From positions 62,001-126,000 of IMG/VR virus record IMGVR_UViG_3300023184_000026: DNA of 64,000 nt. One strand, given 5' to 3'. Shown here one piece after another: positions 39,806-49,756 of the stretch. Made by a program: the position numbers and the translations under genes. The notes beneath the pieces are model-generated. The model ran no database searches and was not told the origin of the DNA. It saw only the letters and a program-made list of their open reading frames with translations. This stretch comes from a virus. Positions within the stretch are counted from its first letter, which is position 1. Each line of letters opens with the position of its first letter.

Positions 39806-39836
39806 AAAACCCACCGAAAGGTGGGTTTTGTTTTTT
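39806..39836. terminator. Bidirectional terminator
   Basis: AAAACCCACC-GAAA-GGTGGGTTTT with T-run, between convergent genes. Same stem and loop as at 13286. Confidence 0.88.
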
Positions 39837-40548
39837 ACATTAGATACGGCAGATATGCTCTGCGAAGAACATCATTTGCATATTTATGATCAAATTCATA
39901 TTTGAATTTACGATCTTCATATGCTTTCTTCAATTCTATTTCATAATTGTCGGCAAGAAAGTTTAGCTGTTCCGCTGTGTATGTTTCTGGTTGAGTTTTT
40001 ACCATCATAAGAAAAGCATGAACATTTGTGTCATATTGCTTTATATTGACAGGAAAATAACCTTTTTCAAACAATGCTTTGCCGCAGCTGGCTAGTCTAA
40101 AAAGCTGTGTGAAGTTCTTTGGACTAAAACCATACTTATCAAGGTGAGCCTTGCGTTTGCTGCCAAGTTGACCTGTGCGTTCACCGTTGGCAAGACGCCG
40201 TTCACCCTGCATATAACCAAGCAGGCATCTAAACATCTTGTCTGTGTCAACAAACTTTAACTTGTTTGTTTGTATTTCTTCAAATATATCACTTGTTTCA
40301 AGCAAGTTGTCGGAGAAAAGTATTTCAAGTGCACCTGTATTACCATTACGAAGAAGCTCAAAAAACTTACGAACTTCATAATAAACTATGTCATCTGTTT
40401 CTTGCTTTTGTATATGATCCATACGCTCCAAACCAAGTATTTTGGATGGATCTGTATTTATGAACACACCTCTATAATCAAGATCAGACTCAGGAGTGTT
40501 GAGTCCATATGCTGTGCTGCCTCCCAAAGCTTTTACTAGCATTTTCAT
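39835..40548 (-). CDS. RlaP-like nucleotidyltransferase
   Basis: The 237-residue protein begins LVKALGGSTAYGLNTPESDL followed by DYRGVF: the GS...D-x-D site of the DNA polymerase beta superfamily. This form (GSxAxGxxxxxSDxDxRGV) is that of the RlaP family of phage and bacterial RNA-repair nucleotidyltransferases. It would add a nucleotide to an RNA end or another molecule. TTGACA-N16-TAAATA on the minus strand (40583 back to 40556) could drive it. Confidence 0.8.
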   Translation of the reverse strand: MKMLVKALGGSTAYGLNTPESDLDYRGVFINTDPSKILGLERMDHIQKQETDDIVYYEVRKFFELLRNGNTGALEILFSDNLLETSDIFEEIQTNKLKFVDTDKMFRCLLGYMQGERRLANGERTGQLGSKRKAHLDKYGFSPKNFTQLFRLASCGKALFEKGYFPVNIKQYDTNVHAFLMMVKTQPETYTAEQLNFLADNYEIELKKAYEDRKFKYEFDHKYANDVLRRAYLPYLM

Positions 40549-42930: not shown

Positions 42931-43431
42931 TTAGTTGGCATCGAGGCGATATACTATTACATCGTTTGGATAGTCATCAAACGCCACTTCAATAAGCCGA
43001 GAAACAATGTCCCAATTTCCACCTCCGCGAAAACTACCCATTTTATAAGGAAATCCAACAGATGGAACGGGCAGGTCCATATCATTTTCTGTCAAATCAT
43101 CCGCCATACCCTCAAGTGCAGAATACAAAGCATCATAATTGGTTTGTCTTGTACCTTTACCATAAAGATTTTGACCATACAAGTTATAGATACGAGAAAT
43201 AGAACTTATATCGTTATTGACCGGAATATAACCTACGGAAAATCTACCCAAAGTGTTTACATTCGCCCTCGCGGCACTGCAATCTGCTTCGTATGCAACT
43301 GGATACATTTCACGAATAGCGCGAGCAATGCCACTGCCAAAAGTATTTTGACAATTGGCTTGATGGGCACAACACCCTATTTCACGCGATGTTAGTAAAT
43401 TACCCTCTCTATAAATTAGATTTTTCATCAC
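42931..43431 (-). CDS. Macro-domain (ADP-ribose-binding) protein
   Basis: The 166-residue protein has GNLLTS near the start and CCAHQANCQNTFGSGIARAI (about residues 20-39), the Asn-containing loop and glycine-rich loop that hold ADP-ribose in macro domains. A second loop, PSVGFPYKMGSFRGG, fits the distal site. Members remove ADP-ribose or 1''-phosphate from ADP-ribose, or reverse ADP-ribosylation of DNA and protein. In a phage this may counter a host ADP-ribosylating or NAD-based defence, or finish RNA repair. Confidence 0.88.
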   Translation of the reverse strand: MMKNLIYREGNLLTSREIGCCAHQANCQNTFGSGIARAIREMYPVAYEADCSAARANVNTLGRFSVGYIPVNNDISSISRIYNLYGQNLYGKGTRQTNYDALYSALEGMADDLTENDMDLPVPSVGFPYKMGSFRGGGNWDIVSRLIEVAFDDYPNDVIVYRLDAN

Positions 43432-43990: not shown

Positions 43991-44638
43991 TTACATATCT
44001 GGACTATGATGGTCTGGCGATTTTGTTTTGCGAGGATTTAGTTCGCGCACAATCTCATTCCATTCCACTGGACGTTTCATCCATTCCCAACCTACATCTA
44101 TTCTATAAAGACTAGTATCTTCTTTTAGATTACGGTGACAATGACCGTGGATATGATAGGCGTCTTTAGATAAATGATTCCAAGATGCGATGGGATAATG
44201 ATCCAAGATAACAGCCCTGCCATCAATAAAGATTTCAGCTCTGTGACCAAGGAATGTAAATGGACTGTTTGGATAATTCAATGGATATATTTCTATATCA
44301 TCAGCAAGCAAACCAACTTCGCCGCGACATTCATCATACATTTGTTGAATACCTGCGTTATGATTACCCCAAATAAAATATTGATGCTTGCAAGGTAGAT
44401 ATACAATTCGTTTAGCATATTCCAATGAGTTTGGTCCGGCACCAATAACAACATCGCCAAGATTGAACACAATATCATTTGGTCCAATCATCTTGAGCAT
44501 TTCATGAGTATGAGAGTATGCTTCATTGACATTTTGATAATTTCGTGGACCAAGAATAAATGGTTTGTCGTGACCCAGATGCAAGTCACTCACAAACCAA
44601 ATCTTTTGGTCAATTGATTTTAGACTAATTTTCTTCAT
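43991..44638 (-). CDS. Calcineurin-like metallophosphoesterase
   Basis: The 215-residue protein has the five metal motifs in order: IWFVSDLHLGH, VFNLGDVV, YFIWGNHN, LDHYPIAS and HIHGHCH. These bind two metal ions and hydrolyse phosphomonoesters or diesters. It overlaps the cyclic-phosphate receiver gene by ATGA, so the two are made together. A plausible job is removal of cyclic or 3' phosphates from RNA ends, which is inference from context. Confidence 0.9.
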   Translation of the reverse strand: MKKISLKSIDQKIWFVSDLHLGHDKPFILGPRNYQNVNEAYSHTHEMLKMIGPNDIVFNLGDVVIGAGPNSLEYAKRIVYLPCKHQYFIWGNHNAGIQQMYDECRGEVGLLADDIEIYPLNYPNSPFTFLGHRAEIFIDGRAVILDHYPIASWNHLSKDAYHIHGHCHRNLKEDTSLYRIDVGWEWMKRPVEWNEIVRELNPRKTKSPDHHSPDM

Positions 44639-44997
44639 TTTCTGCTTTTCTTGTATGATTCAATATAACTACGAATGTTCTCTCTGCCAATAGGATTCAT
44701 ACTGTGAACTTGATAATCAGGAAATTCCAGATTATTGTTCATACAATATTCAACAATCCATTTGCAGCAATCATAGCCAGTTTTTTCTTTGTATTTATCA
44801 TAATTTGGAACACCAACAATATAATGTTCAAGTCCCAAATCGTGATCAAATGAAACAAACGATGGCAAACCATTTTGCATGATATATTTTACAAAATCAT
44901 CATAATTTCTCGCTATAATCCAAGGACCAAGCGGCATTTTTACCCAACTAACATTTTTTGGCAGACGTTCATCGTCAAGAAATAATTTATACATCAT
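44635..44997 (-). CDS. Cyclic-phosphate-processing receiver-domain protein
   Basis: The 120-residue protein starts YKLFLDDERLP, with the acidic pair of a receiver domain, then has FVSFDHDLG, GYDCCKWIVEYC and YQVHSMNPIGRENI. This set is typical of the cyclic-phosphate processing receiver (cPP-receiver) family, proposed from comparative genomics to handle 2',3'-cyclic phosphates in RNA repair. The metallophosphatase follows by ATGA overlap. TTGACA-N16-TATCAT on the minus strand (45028 back to 45001) lies three bases before the start. Confidence 0.75.
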   Translation of the reverse strand: MMYKLFLDDERLPKNVSWVKMPLGPWIIARNYDDFVKYIMQNGLPSFVSFDHDLGLEHYIVGVPNYDKYKEKTGYDCCKWIVEYCMNNNLEFPDYQVHSMNPIGRENIRSYIESYKKSRK

Positions 44998-45032
44998 TTC
45001 ATGATATCTAAATTATATACAATGTCAAGAGT

Positions 45033-45203
45033 TTATATGATTGCATTGTTGTAACTATCCAAGTATTTGTCTATCATCAGATTTGCTACTCTTGTACCAG
45101 CTTTATTATTGGTCTTCTCAAAGTGCTCTTTCTTTTTACTCCAATATTCCAAATCTTTTTTGATTTGTTCTTTGGTATAAGATATAGTGTTATCTGTTTT
45201 CAT
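45033..45203 (-). CDS. Small helical protein
   Basis: A 56-residue product starts by ATGA overlap with the upstream gene and is read MKTDNTISYTKEQIKKDLEY. It is Lys/Glu-rich and helical, ending with VANLMIDKYLDSYNN. Coupling and lack of other coding options support it. No family recognised. Confidence 0.6.
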   Translation of the reverse strand: MKTDNTISYTKEQIKKDLEYWSKKKEHFEKTNNKAGTRVANLMIDKYLDSYNNAII

Positions 45204-45478
45204 TGCAATCTTCCTCCACCAACCAATACATTTCTAAGTGTGCTAGACTGTCCTTTACGACTAGTCTTGGCTTTAAAATCGGCAAATGTGTCTGGCAACA
45301 TAACTTGCAGAAATCCAGCCGTTTTGTGCTCATATACTTGAGCACCCATATATTTTGATTGTGATACACCACGCTTTGCACAACATAGGCAAACACGCAA
45401 ACCAAGTTCGGCTCGTGCGTCTTCAATATACTCAGAGCAGCAACTGCAAGGATTTTTATATAGAGTAAAACCATTCAT
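45200..45478 (-). CDS. Small cysteine-rich, zinc-ribbon-like protein
   Basis: The 92-residue product has PCSCCSEY and VCLCCAKRG, four cysteines in two CxC/CxxC-like pairs spaced as in a zinc ribbon. The second half is basic. It heads a minus-strand unit with the gene at 45033 and has TTGACT-N16-TAATAT just upstream. No function assigned. Confidence 0.6.
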   Translation of the reverse strand: MNGFTLYKNPCSCCSEYIEDARAELGLRVCLCCAKRGVSQSKYMGAQVYEHKTAGFLQVMLPDTFADFKAKTSRKGQSSTLRNVLVGGGRLQ

Positions 45479-45487
45479 ATACCGAAA

Positions 45488-45515
45488 ATATTAGAGTAAG
45501 TATATAAAAAGTCAA
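45488..45515 (-). promoter_or_regulatory. Minus-strand promoter
   Basis: Read on the minus strand: TTGACT (45515-45510), 16-base spacer, TAATAT (45493-45488), nine bases before the ATG at 45478. Confidence 0.6.
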
Positions 45516-45557
45516 GTGAAAAAGACATTTTTTAAAAATTGTTTAAAATAAAAAACA

Positions 45558-45589
45558 TTGACAGCGGCATATAATGTGATACTTATAGT
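45558..45589 (+). promoter_or_regulatory. Possible promoter for the RNA genes
   Basis: TTGACA (45558-45563) and TATAGT (45584-45589) with a long 20-base spacer; the structured RNA begins about 26 bases further. Confidence 0.45.
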
Positions 45590-45615
45590 AGCAGTTCTTT
45601 GATATCAATTTTGAA

Positions 45616-45783
45616 ACATGTAGGGTAGTTTAAAGGACCGCTGTTTAGGAAACTCGCGGTCATTCTTCCAAGACAACATAGTAGGCATCAAGTTTCTTGT
45701 TTAAAAGCCGAAGTCGTGAAGATAGGACGAATTCCCCAAATGGAACTCCGGTATCAGATGCCCGAACTCTGGTCCCTACATGT
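45616..45783 (+). ncRNA. 168-base structured RNA of unknown class
   Basis: ACATGTAGGG and CCCTACATGT form a perfect 10-bp closing stem. Inside are GGACCGC/GCGGTC, GGC-CAAG/CTTG-GCC and several GC-containing pairings; the region has no long ORF. It has a promoter upstream and ends 12 bases before the tmRNA, so both may come from one transcript. Length and closing stem recall 6S RNA, but I see no conserved 6S sequence and do not assign it. Confidence 0.6.
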
Positions 45784-45794
45784 TTTCTTTTCAT

Positions 45795-46185
45795 GGGCGT
45801 GTTATGGATTCTACTTTATAATGTAGGTTTAAGCCGCAAGCACAGAGTCTAATGTCTCTGTATAATACCCGTTGGAAAACATAAATGCTAAGAGAAATCT
45901 TGCAAAGGTGTCTTTTCTTTCTGTTCGCAAGAACAGCGGAGCCGAGACACTTGTCGCAGCCTAATAAAATAGGCTGTCCGTTGTCCTTGTGACACAGATA
46001 ACAAGTCAACAACGTTCATCATCTGGCCGTTTGTGCAAGATAGAAGATGGTAGCACAAATCAAATACTAAACTTCAACTTCAATGTGGTGCTCTACCAAA
46101 CATTGATGTATTATAAGAGATAAGCTTGTATATGTTTAGATGTATGTTATATAGCACGCGGATTCGACTTCCGCCACGTCCACCA
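45795..46185 (+). ncRNA. ssrA: tmRNA (transfer-messenger RNA)
   Basis: The 5' end GGGCGTGTTATGGATTC has the usual tmRNA start and pairs with 3' CACGTCC, followed by A and CCA. The T-arm is GCGGA TTCGACT TCCGC. The tag frame ends ETLVAA with TAATAA at 45962, inside a GCAGCCTAATAAAATAGGCTG hairpin, as in other tmRNAs; the resume codon is probably GCT at 45887 (25-residue tag) or GCA at 45902 (20). It is one-piece, 391 bases. It would free stalled ribosomes and tag their products. Confidence 0.92.
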
Positions 46186-46215
46186 TTTTATTATATATAT
46201 ATGTAGAAAATTTTC

Positions 46216-46243
46216 TTGACTGAAAGGTTTTCTGGTATATAGT
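46216..46243 (+). promoter_or_regulatory. Sigma70-like promoter
   Basis: TTGACT (46216-46221), 16-base spacer, TATAGT (46238-46243), about 50 bases before the outer-membrane protein start. Confidence 0.7.
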
Positions 46244-46294
46244 TATTCATACTTTACAAACTGTGAAGTATTAAAACAATAATATATAATATAT

Positions 46295-47008
46295 ATGACA
46301 AAGAAAATACTATTAATGATTACGGCAGCATGTGCCGCACTCACACTAACTGCATCGCCTGTGACCGTCACAGCAGACGCAACATACTACACCAAGTTTT
46401 TGGACCGTGGTGTTGTTGCATATAATGACGTTGCAGTCGTTGGTGCAAATGTTGAGGTTGCAGGTTTTGTATTGGGTGCAAGCACCTTCAATACTATTCA
46501 AGCAAATGCTGTGGGAAAGAACGTAGTAAGTTCTGGACTACTAAAGCGAATTGATACAACCGTTGGTTATAAGTTTACTGCTCCGCTGGCAAACTTGACC
46601 TTGGGTTCTGTCTATTCCTCTTATAGCAAGAGCATTTCCAACATTGCCAGCACAAACGAACCATTCGTTAAGCTGGATGGCAAGTTATGGAAGAATAGTG
46701 TGTGGGATATCACAGGTCGTTCTGATCTGAAGCTACACACCAATAATGTAGAAACAAATGTTAAACTTCCTTTTGGTTTTCAACACCTAAAGATCGTTCC
46801 TTCCGTTGGATACGGATTCAATGATCCCGGTGCCGCCACAATTGCCGCATTGAAGAATGCAAAGCAATATGCATTGGTTGGAGTTGGTATTGGATATTAC
46901 ACAAAATATGCCACATTGAATGTTGGTATATATCAATCCCGTGACACGCTATTTACTGCTGGAAATACCAGCAGCGGCGTTTCTGGTGGATTGGCCGTAA
47001 AGTTCTAA
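46295..47008 (+). CDS. Outer-membrane beta-barrel protein
   Basis: The 237-residue protein has a signal peptide (KKILLMITAACAALTLTASP). The mature part alternates hydrophobic and polar residues over many strands (VTVTADATYYTKF, TTVGYKFTAPLANLTLGSVY, ATLNVGIYQSRDTLF) and ends with GGLAVKF, a C-terminal Phe as needed for outer-membrane barrel assembly. It could block receptors against other phages or change permeability. It has its own promoter and terminator. Confidence 0.82.
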   Translation: MTKKILLMITAACAALTLTASPVTVTADATYYTKFLDRGVVAYNDVAVVGANVEVAGFVLGASTFNTIQANAVGKNVVSSGLLKRIDTTVGYKFTAPLANLTLGSVYSSYSKSISNIASTNEPFVKLDGKLWKNSVWDITGRSDLKLHTNNVETNVKLPFGFQHLKIVPSVGYGFNDPGAATIAALKNAKQYALVGVGIGYYTKYATLNVGIYQSRDTLFTAGNTSSGVSGGLAVKF

Positions 47009-47025: not shown

Positions 47026-47059
47026 CAAAAAAGGACACCGTAAATGGTGTCCTTTTTTT
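47026..47059 (+). terminator. Strong rho-independent terminator
   Basis: AAAAAGGACACC / GGTGTCCTTTTTTT stem. Confidence 0.92.
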
Positions 47060-47068
47060 ATTGTATTG

Positions 47069-47096
47069 TTGACAAACATCAACATATGTGTAATAT
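47069..47096 (+). promoter_or_regulatory. Promoter, leaderless
   Basis: TTGACA (47069-47074), 16-base spacer, TAATAT (47091-47096); the favoured ATG at 47104 is seven bases after the -10. Confidence 0.6.
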
Positions 47097-47103
47097 CACT
47101 ATT

Positions 47104-48057
47104 ATGATTCTATCACATAATATAGTTCCTTCACTTTGTTGCATTCACAATGGTCTAAAAGACCAAGGTGTTAAATTCAACACCATGACTTATGCTCAAT
47201 ACAAGAAGTTGGGCAAGGACACAGCAATGAAGGTTCTAGCAGACCGCTCGTTCAATAATATCAAGACCATTCACTCTATTATAAAAGAGTGTGCCAAAAA
47301 CAAATGGAATTATAGAATTGGCAGCAATGTGTTTCCATTGATGACACATCCCGATTTGAAATTTGGCATAGATGATTTTTATAATTTCTCAGATATTATA
47401 TCAGAGTTTAGCGCATGTGCTACTACTATTAAACAAAACAAAGTGCGTTGCAGTATGCACCCAGACCAGTTTGTGGTTCCTGCAAGTCCAAAAAATGGTG
47501 TTGCTGAAAACTCTATTCGCGACCTTGAACAACATGCTATGATTATGGATTTACTTCAACTACCACAATCATATGAAGCACCAATCAATATTCATATGAA
47601 TTGTTATAATGACGGCAATTTTAGTGAAGTTATTGATAGATTGGAAAAAGTTATCAAACGCATGTCAAAATCTGTAACAAGTAGGCTTGTTTTCGAGAAC
47701 GAAGATAAACTAAAAAGTTGGACTGTATATAATCTACACGAACATCTTTATAAACGCACAGGTATTCCAATCACATACGACAATCTTCATAACAAATGTA
47801 ATCCATCCACACTTCTCGATGAACAACAAACATTTGATTTATCTGTATCCACTTGGCCGAATGGTATTATTCCATTGTTTCATTTCAGCGAATCACTTGC
47901 TGGTAAAAATCCACGTGCTCATGCCGACTTTCCTACATTTGTACCTATGGTATATTCTACATATAAAAAAGATTTGCATCTTGATTTTGAGTTCAAGCAT
48001 AAAGAATCTGCTATAAATAAGATTTCTCGCCAAAACTTATTGACATTTGATAAATAA
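47104..48057 (+). CDS. uvsE: UV-damage endonuclease (UvdE/UvsE)
   Basis: I chose the ATG at 47104 because the promoter ends at 47096; upstream ATGs would lie inside it. The 317-residue protein has VRCSMHPDQFVVPAS, INIHMNCYND, RLVFENEDKLKSWT, ITYDNLHNKCN and LFHFSES, matching the metal-binding His, Glu and Asp positions of the UvdE TIM barrel. It nicks DNA 5' to UV photoproducts to begin excision repair, useful for a phage exposed to sunlight. Confidence 0.9.
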   Translation: MILSHNIVPSLCCIHNGLKDQGVKFNTMTYAQYKKLGKDTAMKVLADRSFNNIKTIHSIIKECAKNKWNYRIGSNVFPLMTHPDLKFGIDDFYNFSDIISEFSACATTIKQNKVRCSMHPDQFVVPASPKNGVAENSIRDLEQHAMIMDLLQLPQSYEAPINIHMNCYNDGNFSEVIDRLEKVIKRMSKSVTSRLVFENEDKLKSWTVYNLHEHLYKRTGIPITYDNLHNKCNPSTLLDEQQTFDLSVSTWPNGIIPLFHFSESLAGKNPRAHADFPTFVPMVYSTYKKDLHLDFEFKHKESAINKISRQNLLTFDK

Positions 48058-48640: not shown

Positions 48641-49756
48641 GTGAAAATTGACTTACAATCCATAAACCCCGAATCATTCATGGTTCATCAGCACTTTGTT
48701 GGTGGGCATGAATGTTTTTTGGTTCAGCCCAAAAATATTGGTGCAACTTGGAATAAAGAGAACTTGATTTATCGCTCTTCATTGTGGGATAAAGAAGGAA
48801 ATCCCGTTTCACTTTCGTTCAAAAAGTTCTTCAATTATGATGAAAAGCCCGACATCTTTCCTGCACCTTCTGATCTAAAAAATGCAAAGTTGATGGAAAA
48901 GTTGGACGGTTCTACTTTAATCTTTTCTCGCTACAAGGGTCACACTGTTATTCGCACACGCGGAACTGTTGATGCTCATAAGCAAGCAAATGGACATGAG
49001 ATAGACTATTTGTGTGAAAAGTACAAGAAGTTCATTGCATATCTTGAAATGCTAGAAACTAGCAATGAGTCTTTTGTACTGGAATGGTTGAGTCCAACCA
49101 ATCGCATTGTATTGAACTATGGCGACGAACCTGACATGGTTTTGACTGCTGTAATCAATCACAATGATTATTCCTTGATGTGCCAATCTCAATTGGACTA
49201 TTTTGCATCTGATATTGGGCTGCGCCGTCCCCGCACTTTCTCCTACAACTCCGTTGAAGAAATGAAGTCGGCAGTTGAAGTGTTGAAAGACCAAGAAGGC
49301 TTGTGTGTGTATTATAACAACGAACAACAAATTCGTAAAGTAAAAGCTGCATCATATCTTTTTTTACATCGTGCAAAAAGTGAAATTTCTAGCATAGAAA
49401 AAGTCATTGATGTATATATTGATTGGTTTATGGATCGGCACAATCTTTCTCATGAACCAACTGGTTATGTAGAATTCTTTGAATATCTAACCGAGAAGTT
49501 TGACTTTGAAATTGCTACAATGGCAACTGGACACGCTTCGCGTATCTGTGATGCTATGAAAGAAGTTCACAAGATTATGAATGCATTGTTTGAGTTTGCA
49601 TCTGCTCGTATGAACATTGCTCGTAATATTGCCGCCAAAGAAATCTTACAAGCATACGGCAGCACGGGCAGAAGTGCAATTATATTCAAGATGCTAGATC
49701 GCAAGACCATCGGCACTGATGATTATAAAAAATTGCTATATCAAGTATTGAAGTAA
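48641..49756 (+). CDS. rnlA: T4 Rnl1-like RNA ligase
   Basis: The 371-residue protein (T4 RnlA is 374) has motif I KLMEKLDGSTLIFSRY with the AMP-accepting Lys, RTRGT after it, motif III ESFVLEWLSPTNRIVL, motif IV EGLCVYY and motif V KVKAASYL. The helical C-terminal third corresponds to the tRNA-anticodon-recognising domain of Rnl1. It reseals tRNAs cut by host anticodon nucleases. It begins with GTG directly at the predicted transcript start. Confidence 0.93.
   Translation: MKIDLQSINPESFMVHQHFVGGHECFLVQPKNIGATWNKENLIYRSSLWDKEGNPVSLSFKKFFNYDEKPDIFPAPSDLKNAKLMEKLDGSTLIFSRYKGHTVIRTRGTVDAHKQANGHEIDYLCEKYKKFIAYLEMLETSNESFVLEWLSPTNRIVLNYGDEPDMVLTAVINHNDYSLMCQSQLDYFASDIGLRRPRTFSYNSVEEMKSAVEVLKDQEGLCVYYNNEQQIRKVKAASYLFLHRAKSEISSIEKVIDVYIDWFMDRHNLSHEPTGYVEFFEYLTEKFDFEIATMATGHASRICDAMKEVHKIMNALFEFASARMNIARNIAAKEILQAYGSTGRSAIIFKMLDRKTIGTDDYKKLLYQVLK

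Follow-up and report, generated by a model that had tools for sequence, protein, structure and literature searches.

The window analyzed here, a stretch of 64,000 nucleotides, spans positions 62001-126000 of a linear record, 297,258 bases long, that belongs to a giant freshwater bacterial virus. The record encodes a T4-type DNA polymerase and clamp loader, and the window carries 30 tRNA genes (ARAGORN). At 45795-46185, on the plus strand, lies the gene for a one-piece tmRNA (ssrA), preceded by a promoter-like stretch, a boxA-like element and a structured leader RNA, and flanked by genes of RNA repair.

A one-piece tmRNA had been proposed at this position in a preliminary description, together with the searches by which it could be checked, and both searches bear it out. 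ARAGORN returns exactly 45795-46185, in agreement with Rfam, where the match to RF00023 covers model positions 1-374 (the full length) and scores 94.2 bits (E 2e-35), well over the gathering score of 47 bits; it is the only sequence above that cut-off in the whole 297,258-base record. The fold has a z-score of −5.3 against dinucleotide shuffles. The 5′ strand of the acceptor stem (GGGCGTG, 45795-45801, plus strand) pairs with CACGTCC at 46175-46181 and includes G3:U70, while the T-arm (GCGGA-TTCGACT-TCCGC), acceptor 3′ strand and encoded ACCA (46158-46185, plus strand) are intact. The remaining elements – resume codon, tag frame, a tail of the hydrophobic-Ala-Ala type and stop codons that sit within the tag-end hairpin – are likewise in place, and the ends, T-arm and tag-end hairpin are as the preliminary description had expected. 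By all sequence tests this is a one-piece tmRNA; its anatomy leads us to infer that it would be aminoacylated, bind SmpB and tag stalled products.

Related loci were sought among viral contigs via the two genes downstream of the tmRNA and via sequence patterns. Dozens were found, all on IMG/VR contigs, giving 21 distinct tmRNA sequences with the window copy included, most with the UvdE gene downstream (blastn, MAFFT). The tmRNAs of the closest relatives escape ARAGORN: that of L064 has a bulged T-stem, and those of L059, L063 and L101 have TGCAACT, not TTCRACT, as T-loop and TAGATTC, not TGGATTC, in the D-loop region. The two swaps possibly mark a compensated 18-55 tertiary contact. A scan of viral contigs for the exact tmRNA 5′-end returned a single contig (L009), which is unrelated, and no DNA-level match was present in 50,697 phage records. 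The closest DNA polymerase is that of Microcystis phage Mel-JY01 (42.5%). A cyanophage reading was nonetheless rejected: a psbA-family gene is absent from 13 records and Mel-JY01 lacks a full tmRNA, its weak R1 match being a terminator-like hairpin.

The stems of the tmRNA carry compensatory changes across the 21 distinct sequences. Acceptor strands read GGGCGTG, GGGCTCG, GGGCATG, GGGCGCG or GTGGCCG, and all pair and all have G3:U70; the more distant L165 (GGGCCGT) is also paired and also keeps it, so that the alanine signal shows no variation among the 21 clade sequences, L165 and L173. T-stems occur as about nine sequences, all paired but for the one-base bulge in L064. The acceptor of L166 and L170 (GGGCCTG/CAGGTCC) was read by eye because neither encodes CCA and the script offsets do not apply. 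T-arms are the fastest-varying part of the tmRNA across the clade; the window tmRNA and that of L064 are about 98% identical (blastn) and differ mostly within this arm. These comparisons, with those of the tag below, show from sequence that fold and peptide are selected across the whole lineage. Since tmRNA genes often serve as integration sites (PMC12595487), the gene might be supposed to be a functionless remnant of a host ssrA acquired through integration. Its full length, its constant location in the 21 distinct sequences, the compensatory stem changes and the in-frame tags already contradict this, and we give it practically no credence.

The tag reading frame (45887-45967, plus strand) consists of 25 codons at 45887-45961, specifying AKRNLAKVSFLSVRKNSGAETLVAA, and two stops, TAA TAA, at 45962-45967. 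The preliminary description had offered a long tag of either 20 or 25 residues ending LVAA. The longer version stands; the shorter does not, because ARAGORN gives a 25-residue tag. A start at GCA 45902, as the 20-residue tag would need, is unsupported: structure alignment to the Rfam model, together with conservation in the 21 distinct sequences, fixes the resume codon as GCT at 45887 and provides a proper reading frame. A GNRA hairpin inside the tag was discarded as a feature, being unconserved in relatives.

Variation among relatives is that of a coding sequence. The first seven residues, AKRNLAK, are unchanging among the 21 distinct sequences though their codons differ, with 0, 0 and 4 variable columns at codon positions one, two and three; over the whole tag, single-base codon differences comprise 38 synonymous and 26 amino-acid-changing; and every indel is a multiple of three. 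The tag is thus under coding constraint, which matches what a translated, functional tag predicts. AKRNLAK tags are found also in the more distant phages L165, L166 and L170. The tmRNA shares with bacterial one-piece tmRNA (ssrA, RF00023) the acceptor, T-arm, PK1-like region, resume codon, tag frame, tag-end hairpin and encoded CCA; it differs in its 25-residue tag (22-28 residues in close relatives of the clade, 42 in L173) and in the start that is invariant in the clade. Comparison with bacterial tags, which had been suggested as a way to the host, yielded none: when 84,980 species were scanned with a pattern made of the tag start and its flank, 8 matches came back, 0 of them a tmRNA, in a search that is not exhaustive because the pattern demands ATAA before the resume codon. 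A different one-piece tmRNA (136.5 bits, not called by ARAGORN) is present in the related phage contig L173 at 1501-1942; its 42-residue tag reads AENNVVKMAKDLVASAKRGFATSKVVKFPAKEEVVESFALAA.

The tag bears on two other accounts of what the RNA does. It may chiefly mark stalled host and phage proteins for degradation and so recycle amino acids, with rescue incidental, a role that has been proposed for phage Melnitz (PMC9004378). In keeping with this account, tails such as LVAA and LAAA resemble degrons and selection acts on the peptide, but the strongest constraint falls on the N-terminal AKRNLAK rather than on the tail, and the tmRNA is placed among RNA-repair genes; we regard it as unlikely. 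Less likely by far is a role as competitor or sensor, in which the RNA would tag nothing productively and would instead titrate host SmpB or change stalling in the host. The TLD-only phage tmRNA of DS6A has been likened to a tmRNA inhibitor, perhaps one titrating SmpB (PMC4131195); here, however, conservation extends to the mRNA-like domain as well as to tag frame, resume codon and stops, and the peptide is selected.

Upstream of the tmRNA, features on which the text of the preliminary description is silent form the head of what appears to be a stable-RNA unit. A promoter-like stretch, TTGACA ... GATACTTATAGT, occupies 45558-45589 (plus strand); TTGACA and GATACT stand an unusual 14 bases apart, and upstream conservation in relatives suggests that it would serve as a promoter. 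It is followed, at 45594-45602 on the same strand, by the boxA-like element GTTCTTTGA, which comes after the promoter-like stretch in the relatives read and is conserved even in L097, which has no leader RNA. At a promoter-like head the element occurs only before tmRNA/leader units and before one tRNA-Leu: the one other plus-strand copy in the window lies directly 5′ of tRNA-Leu, after a TTGACC...TATAGT promoter. As in the rrn operons, a boxA-like sequence follows a promoter close to the start of transcripts that are structured and not translated. The difference is that here it heads a phage tmRNA unit and matches the gammaproteobacterial consensus, GYTCTTTAANA (PMC5725501), in part. By analogy GTTCTTTGA may act as a boxA, binding NusB/NusE and promoting antitermination. 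A further boxA-like stretch, GGTTCTTTTAACA, lies at 23137 of the window, in noncoding DNA ahead of the tRNA array.

Between this element and the tmRNA lies a conserved structured RNA of ∼175 nt (45614-45786, plus strand), whose closing stem (45614-45625 / 45774-45785) ends 9 nt 5′ of the tmRNA. Compensatory changes are found in 23 of 34 predicted pairs (RNAalifold); 98.6% of cells are paired compared to 87.8% in shuffled alignments, a value reached by 0 of 500 shuffles (a count that is not a strict probability because the sequences are related) and far from the 32-45% of slid controls. An extra helix (GACCGC/GCGGUC in the window), checked separately, persists through base changes in the clade. 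Because the window copy folded alone is unremarkable (z −0.5), the evidence for structure is that of covariation. With L101 and L165 left out of its construction, a covariance model recovers both of these divergent versions (E 2e-9 and 3e-6), and every true match adjoins a tmRNA; contigs with the leader pattern and no tmRNA (L117, L120, L123, L131, L136, L142, L145 and L150) are chance occurrences by the same model. Rfam 15 gave no credible match, and thus no known riboswitch or sRNA family, for window 44990-46400 (E up to 5) or for the L166 homologue (E up to 10).

The position of the leader, always directly 5′ of the tmRNA and between promoter/boxA and tmRNA, would suit a leader through which the tmRNA is controlled, by ligand sensing or processing, as opposed to a small RNA independent of it, and phage Melnitz provides a precedent in which a glutamine riboswitch is said to control tmRNA (PMC9004378). 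Against this, neither a terminator nor a ligand pocket was identified in the leader, and its long closing stem, ending just before the tmRNA, suits a separate stable RNA too. Furthermore, L097 retains tmRNA and promoter yet has no leader, which is accordingly dispensable. We place the chances of control by the leader at about even.

The neighborhood of the tmRNA is rich in RNA-repair genes. On one side, all on the minus strand, are genes for RlaP, of the RNA-repair nucleotidyltransferase family (39835-40548; Pfam PF10127, E 1.6e-16), a Macro-domain-like phosphatase (42931-43431; phrog_335, E 3.7e-38, with PF01661 below its cut-off), a phosphoesterase (43991-44638; phrog_547, E 2.4e-31) and cREC, a cyclic-phosphate-processing receiver domain (44635-44997; PF20274, E 3.7e-23). 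On the other, all on the plus strand, the next gene downstream encodes a 237-aa protein with a signal-peptide-like start (46295-47008; no Pfam or PHROG match), which may, at a guess, be an outer-membrane barrel, followed by a UvdE/UvsE UV-damage endonuclease (47044-48057; PF03851, E 7.7e-40) and a T4-type RNA ligase (48641-49756; PF09511, E 2.3e-15). In relatives, RlaP, Macro, phosphoesterase, cREC and RNA ligase are found again near the tmRNA, most relatives retaining most of them where locus length permits, and by their predicted functions these genes form an RNA-repair island. The cREC, Macro and RNA ligase genes have been described as RNA-repair or conflict genes of jumbo phages (PMC7824862), where tmRNA is unmentioned; the genes around the tmRNA match that RNA-repair/ribosome-rescue theme. 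Ribosome rescue under phage control, as the preliminary description suggested, finds its setting here, in the 30 tRNAs of the window and the conserved RNA-repair genes on both sides. No mRNA-cleaving enzyme was identified; the RegB model gave no match, but neither did its controls.

SmpB (PF01668), the search for which had also been proposed, was found neither in the record nor in 23 related records, all incomplete (bacterial controls were positive), so that these records hold no complete phage tmRNA-SmpB pair. Host SmpB is therefore presumably used, and function of the tmRNA would depend on the host.

That tmRNA genes are rare in phages, as first supposed, holds in the sense of uncommon, not of extraordinary: they occur in 402 of 18,146 phage genomes, about 2.3% (PMC9004378), and in huge phages too (PMC7162821). 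Because phage tmRNAs are already known, the gene is by itself no new kind. Like those of phage G, mycobacteriophages, Melnitz, AP-J-162 and huge phages (PMC4131195, PMC9004378, PMC11242549, PMC7162821), it is a tailed-phage tmRNA, often accompanied by many tRNAs; what sets it apart is the conserved boxA-leader-tmRNA unit within an RNA-repair island. Melnitz resembles it in having a structured RNA directly 5′ of the tmRNA, but that tmRNA is two-piece whereas this one is one-piece, and the leader here is not a glutamine riboswitch.

We consider it probable that the tmRNA is the phage's own product, made from a unit of promoter, boxA-like element, leader and tmRNA, and serves ribosome rescue that operates with RNA repair against RNA cutting by host defences or infection. 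To the demonstrated tmRNA anatomy, lineage-wide selection, conserved leader with boxA-like element and conserved RNA-repair neighbors, this reading adds charging, SmpB use, proteolysis, antitermination and defence as inferred steps. Transcription would run from the promoter through the boxA-like antitermination element and leader into the tmRNA which, once processed, would be charged by host alanyl-tRNA synthetase via G3:U70 and carried by host SmpB to ribosomes that have stalled on broken mRNA. These would switch onto the 25-codon tag frame, and the LVAA tail would be expected to route the tagged product to a host protease such as ClpXP. Together, tmRNA, 30 tRNAs and repair enzymes would sustain translation while RNA is being cut by host defences or by the infection itself. 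A bolder view is tentative: that the leader represents a new class of structured phage RNA controlling or cooperating with ribosome rescue, that the boxA-headed RNA-tmRNA unit responds to RNA damage in host defence, and that the AKRNLAK start of the phage-specific tag functions beyond a degron.

It is easy to mistake a phage tmRNA for a gene strayed from the host; in this case selection is clear, and the gene is retained throughout a group of phages. The locus offers a concrete test of whether phages survive RNA-cutting defences by ribosome rescue, and the leader, without a match among described families, is well supported as a new structured RNA.

Elsewhere in the window, an HDV-like ribozyme candidate lies 5′ of the tRNA array at 23378-23452 (P1 GTTCTGC/GCAGAAC; RF02682, 33.4 bits, E 3.6e-4, under the gathering score of 44) and resembles the theta ribozymes associated with tRNAs (PMC10879173). 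A second candidate, seen by eye at about 22920-22965 (CTTTATT...CAACCTACACGTGG...AATAAAG), is without Rfam match. The phage also encodes a tyrosinase-domain protein (PF00264, 41407-42897) and a TPS secretion-domain protein (PF05860, 31679-33652).
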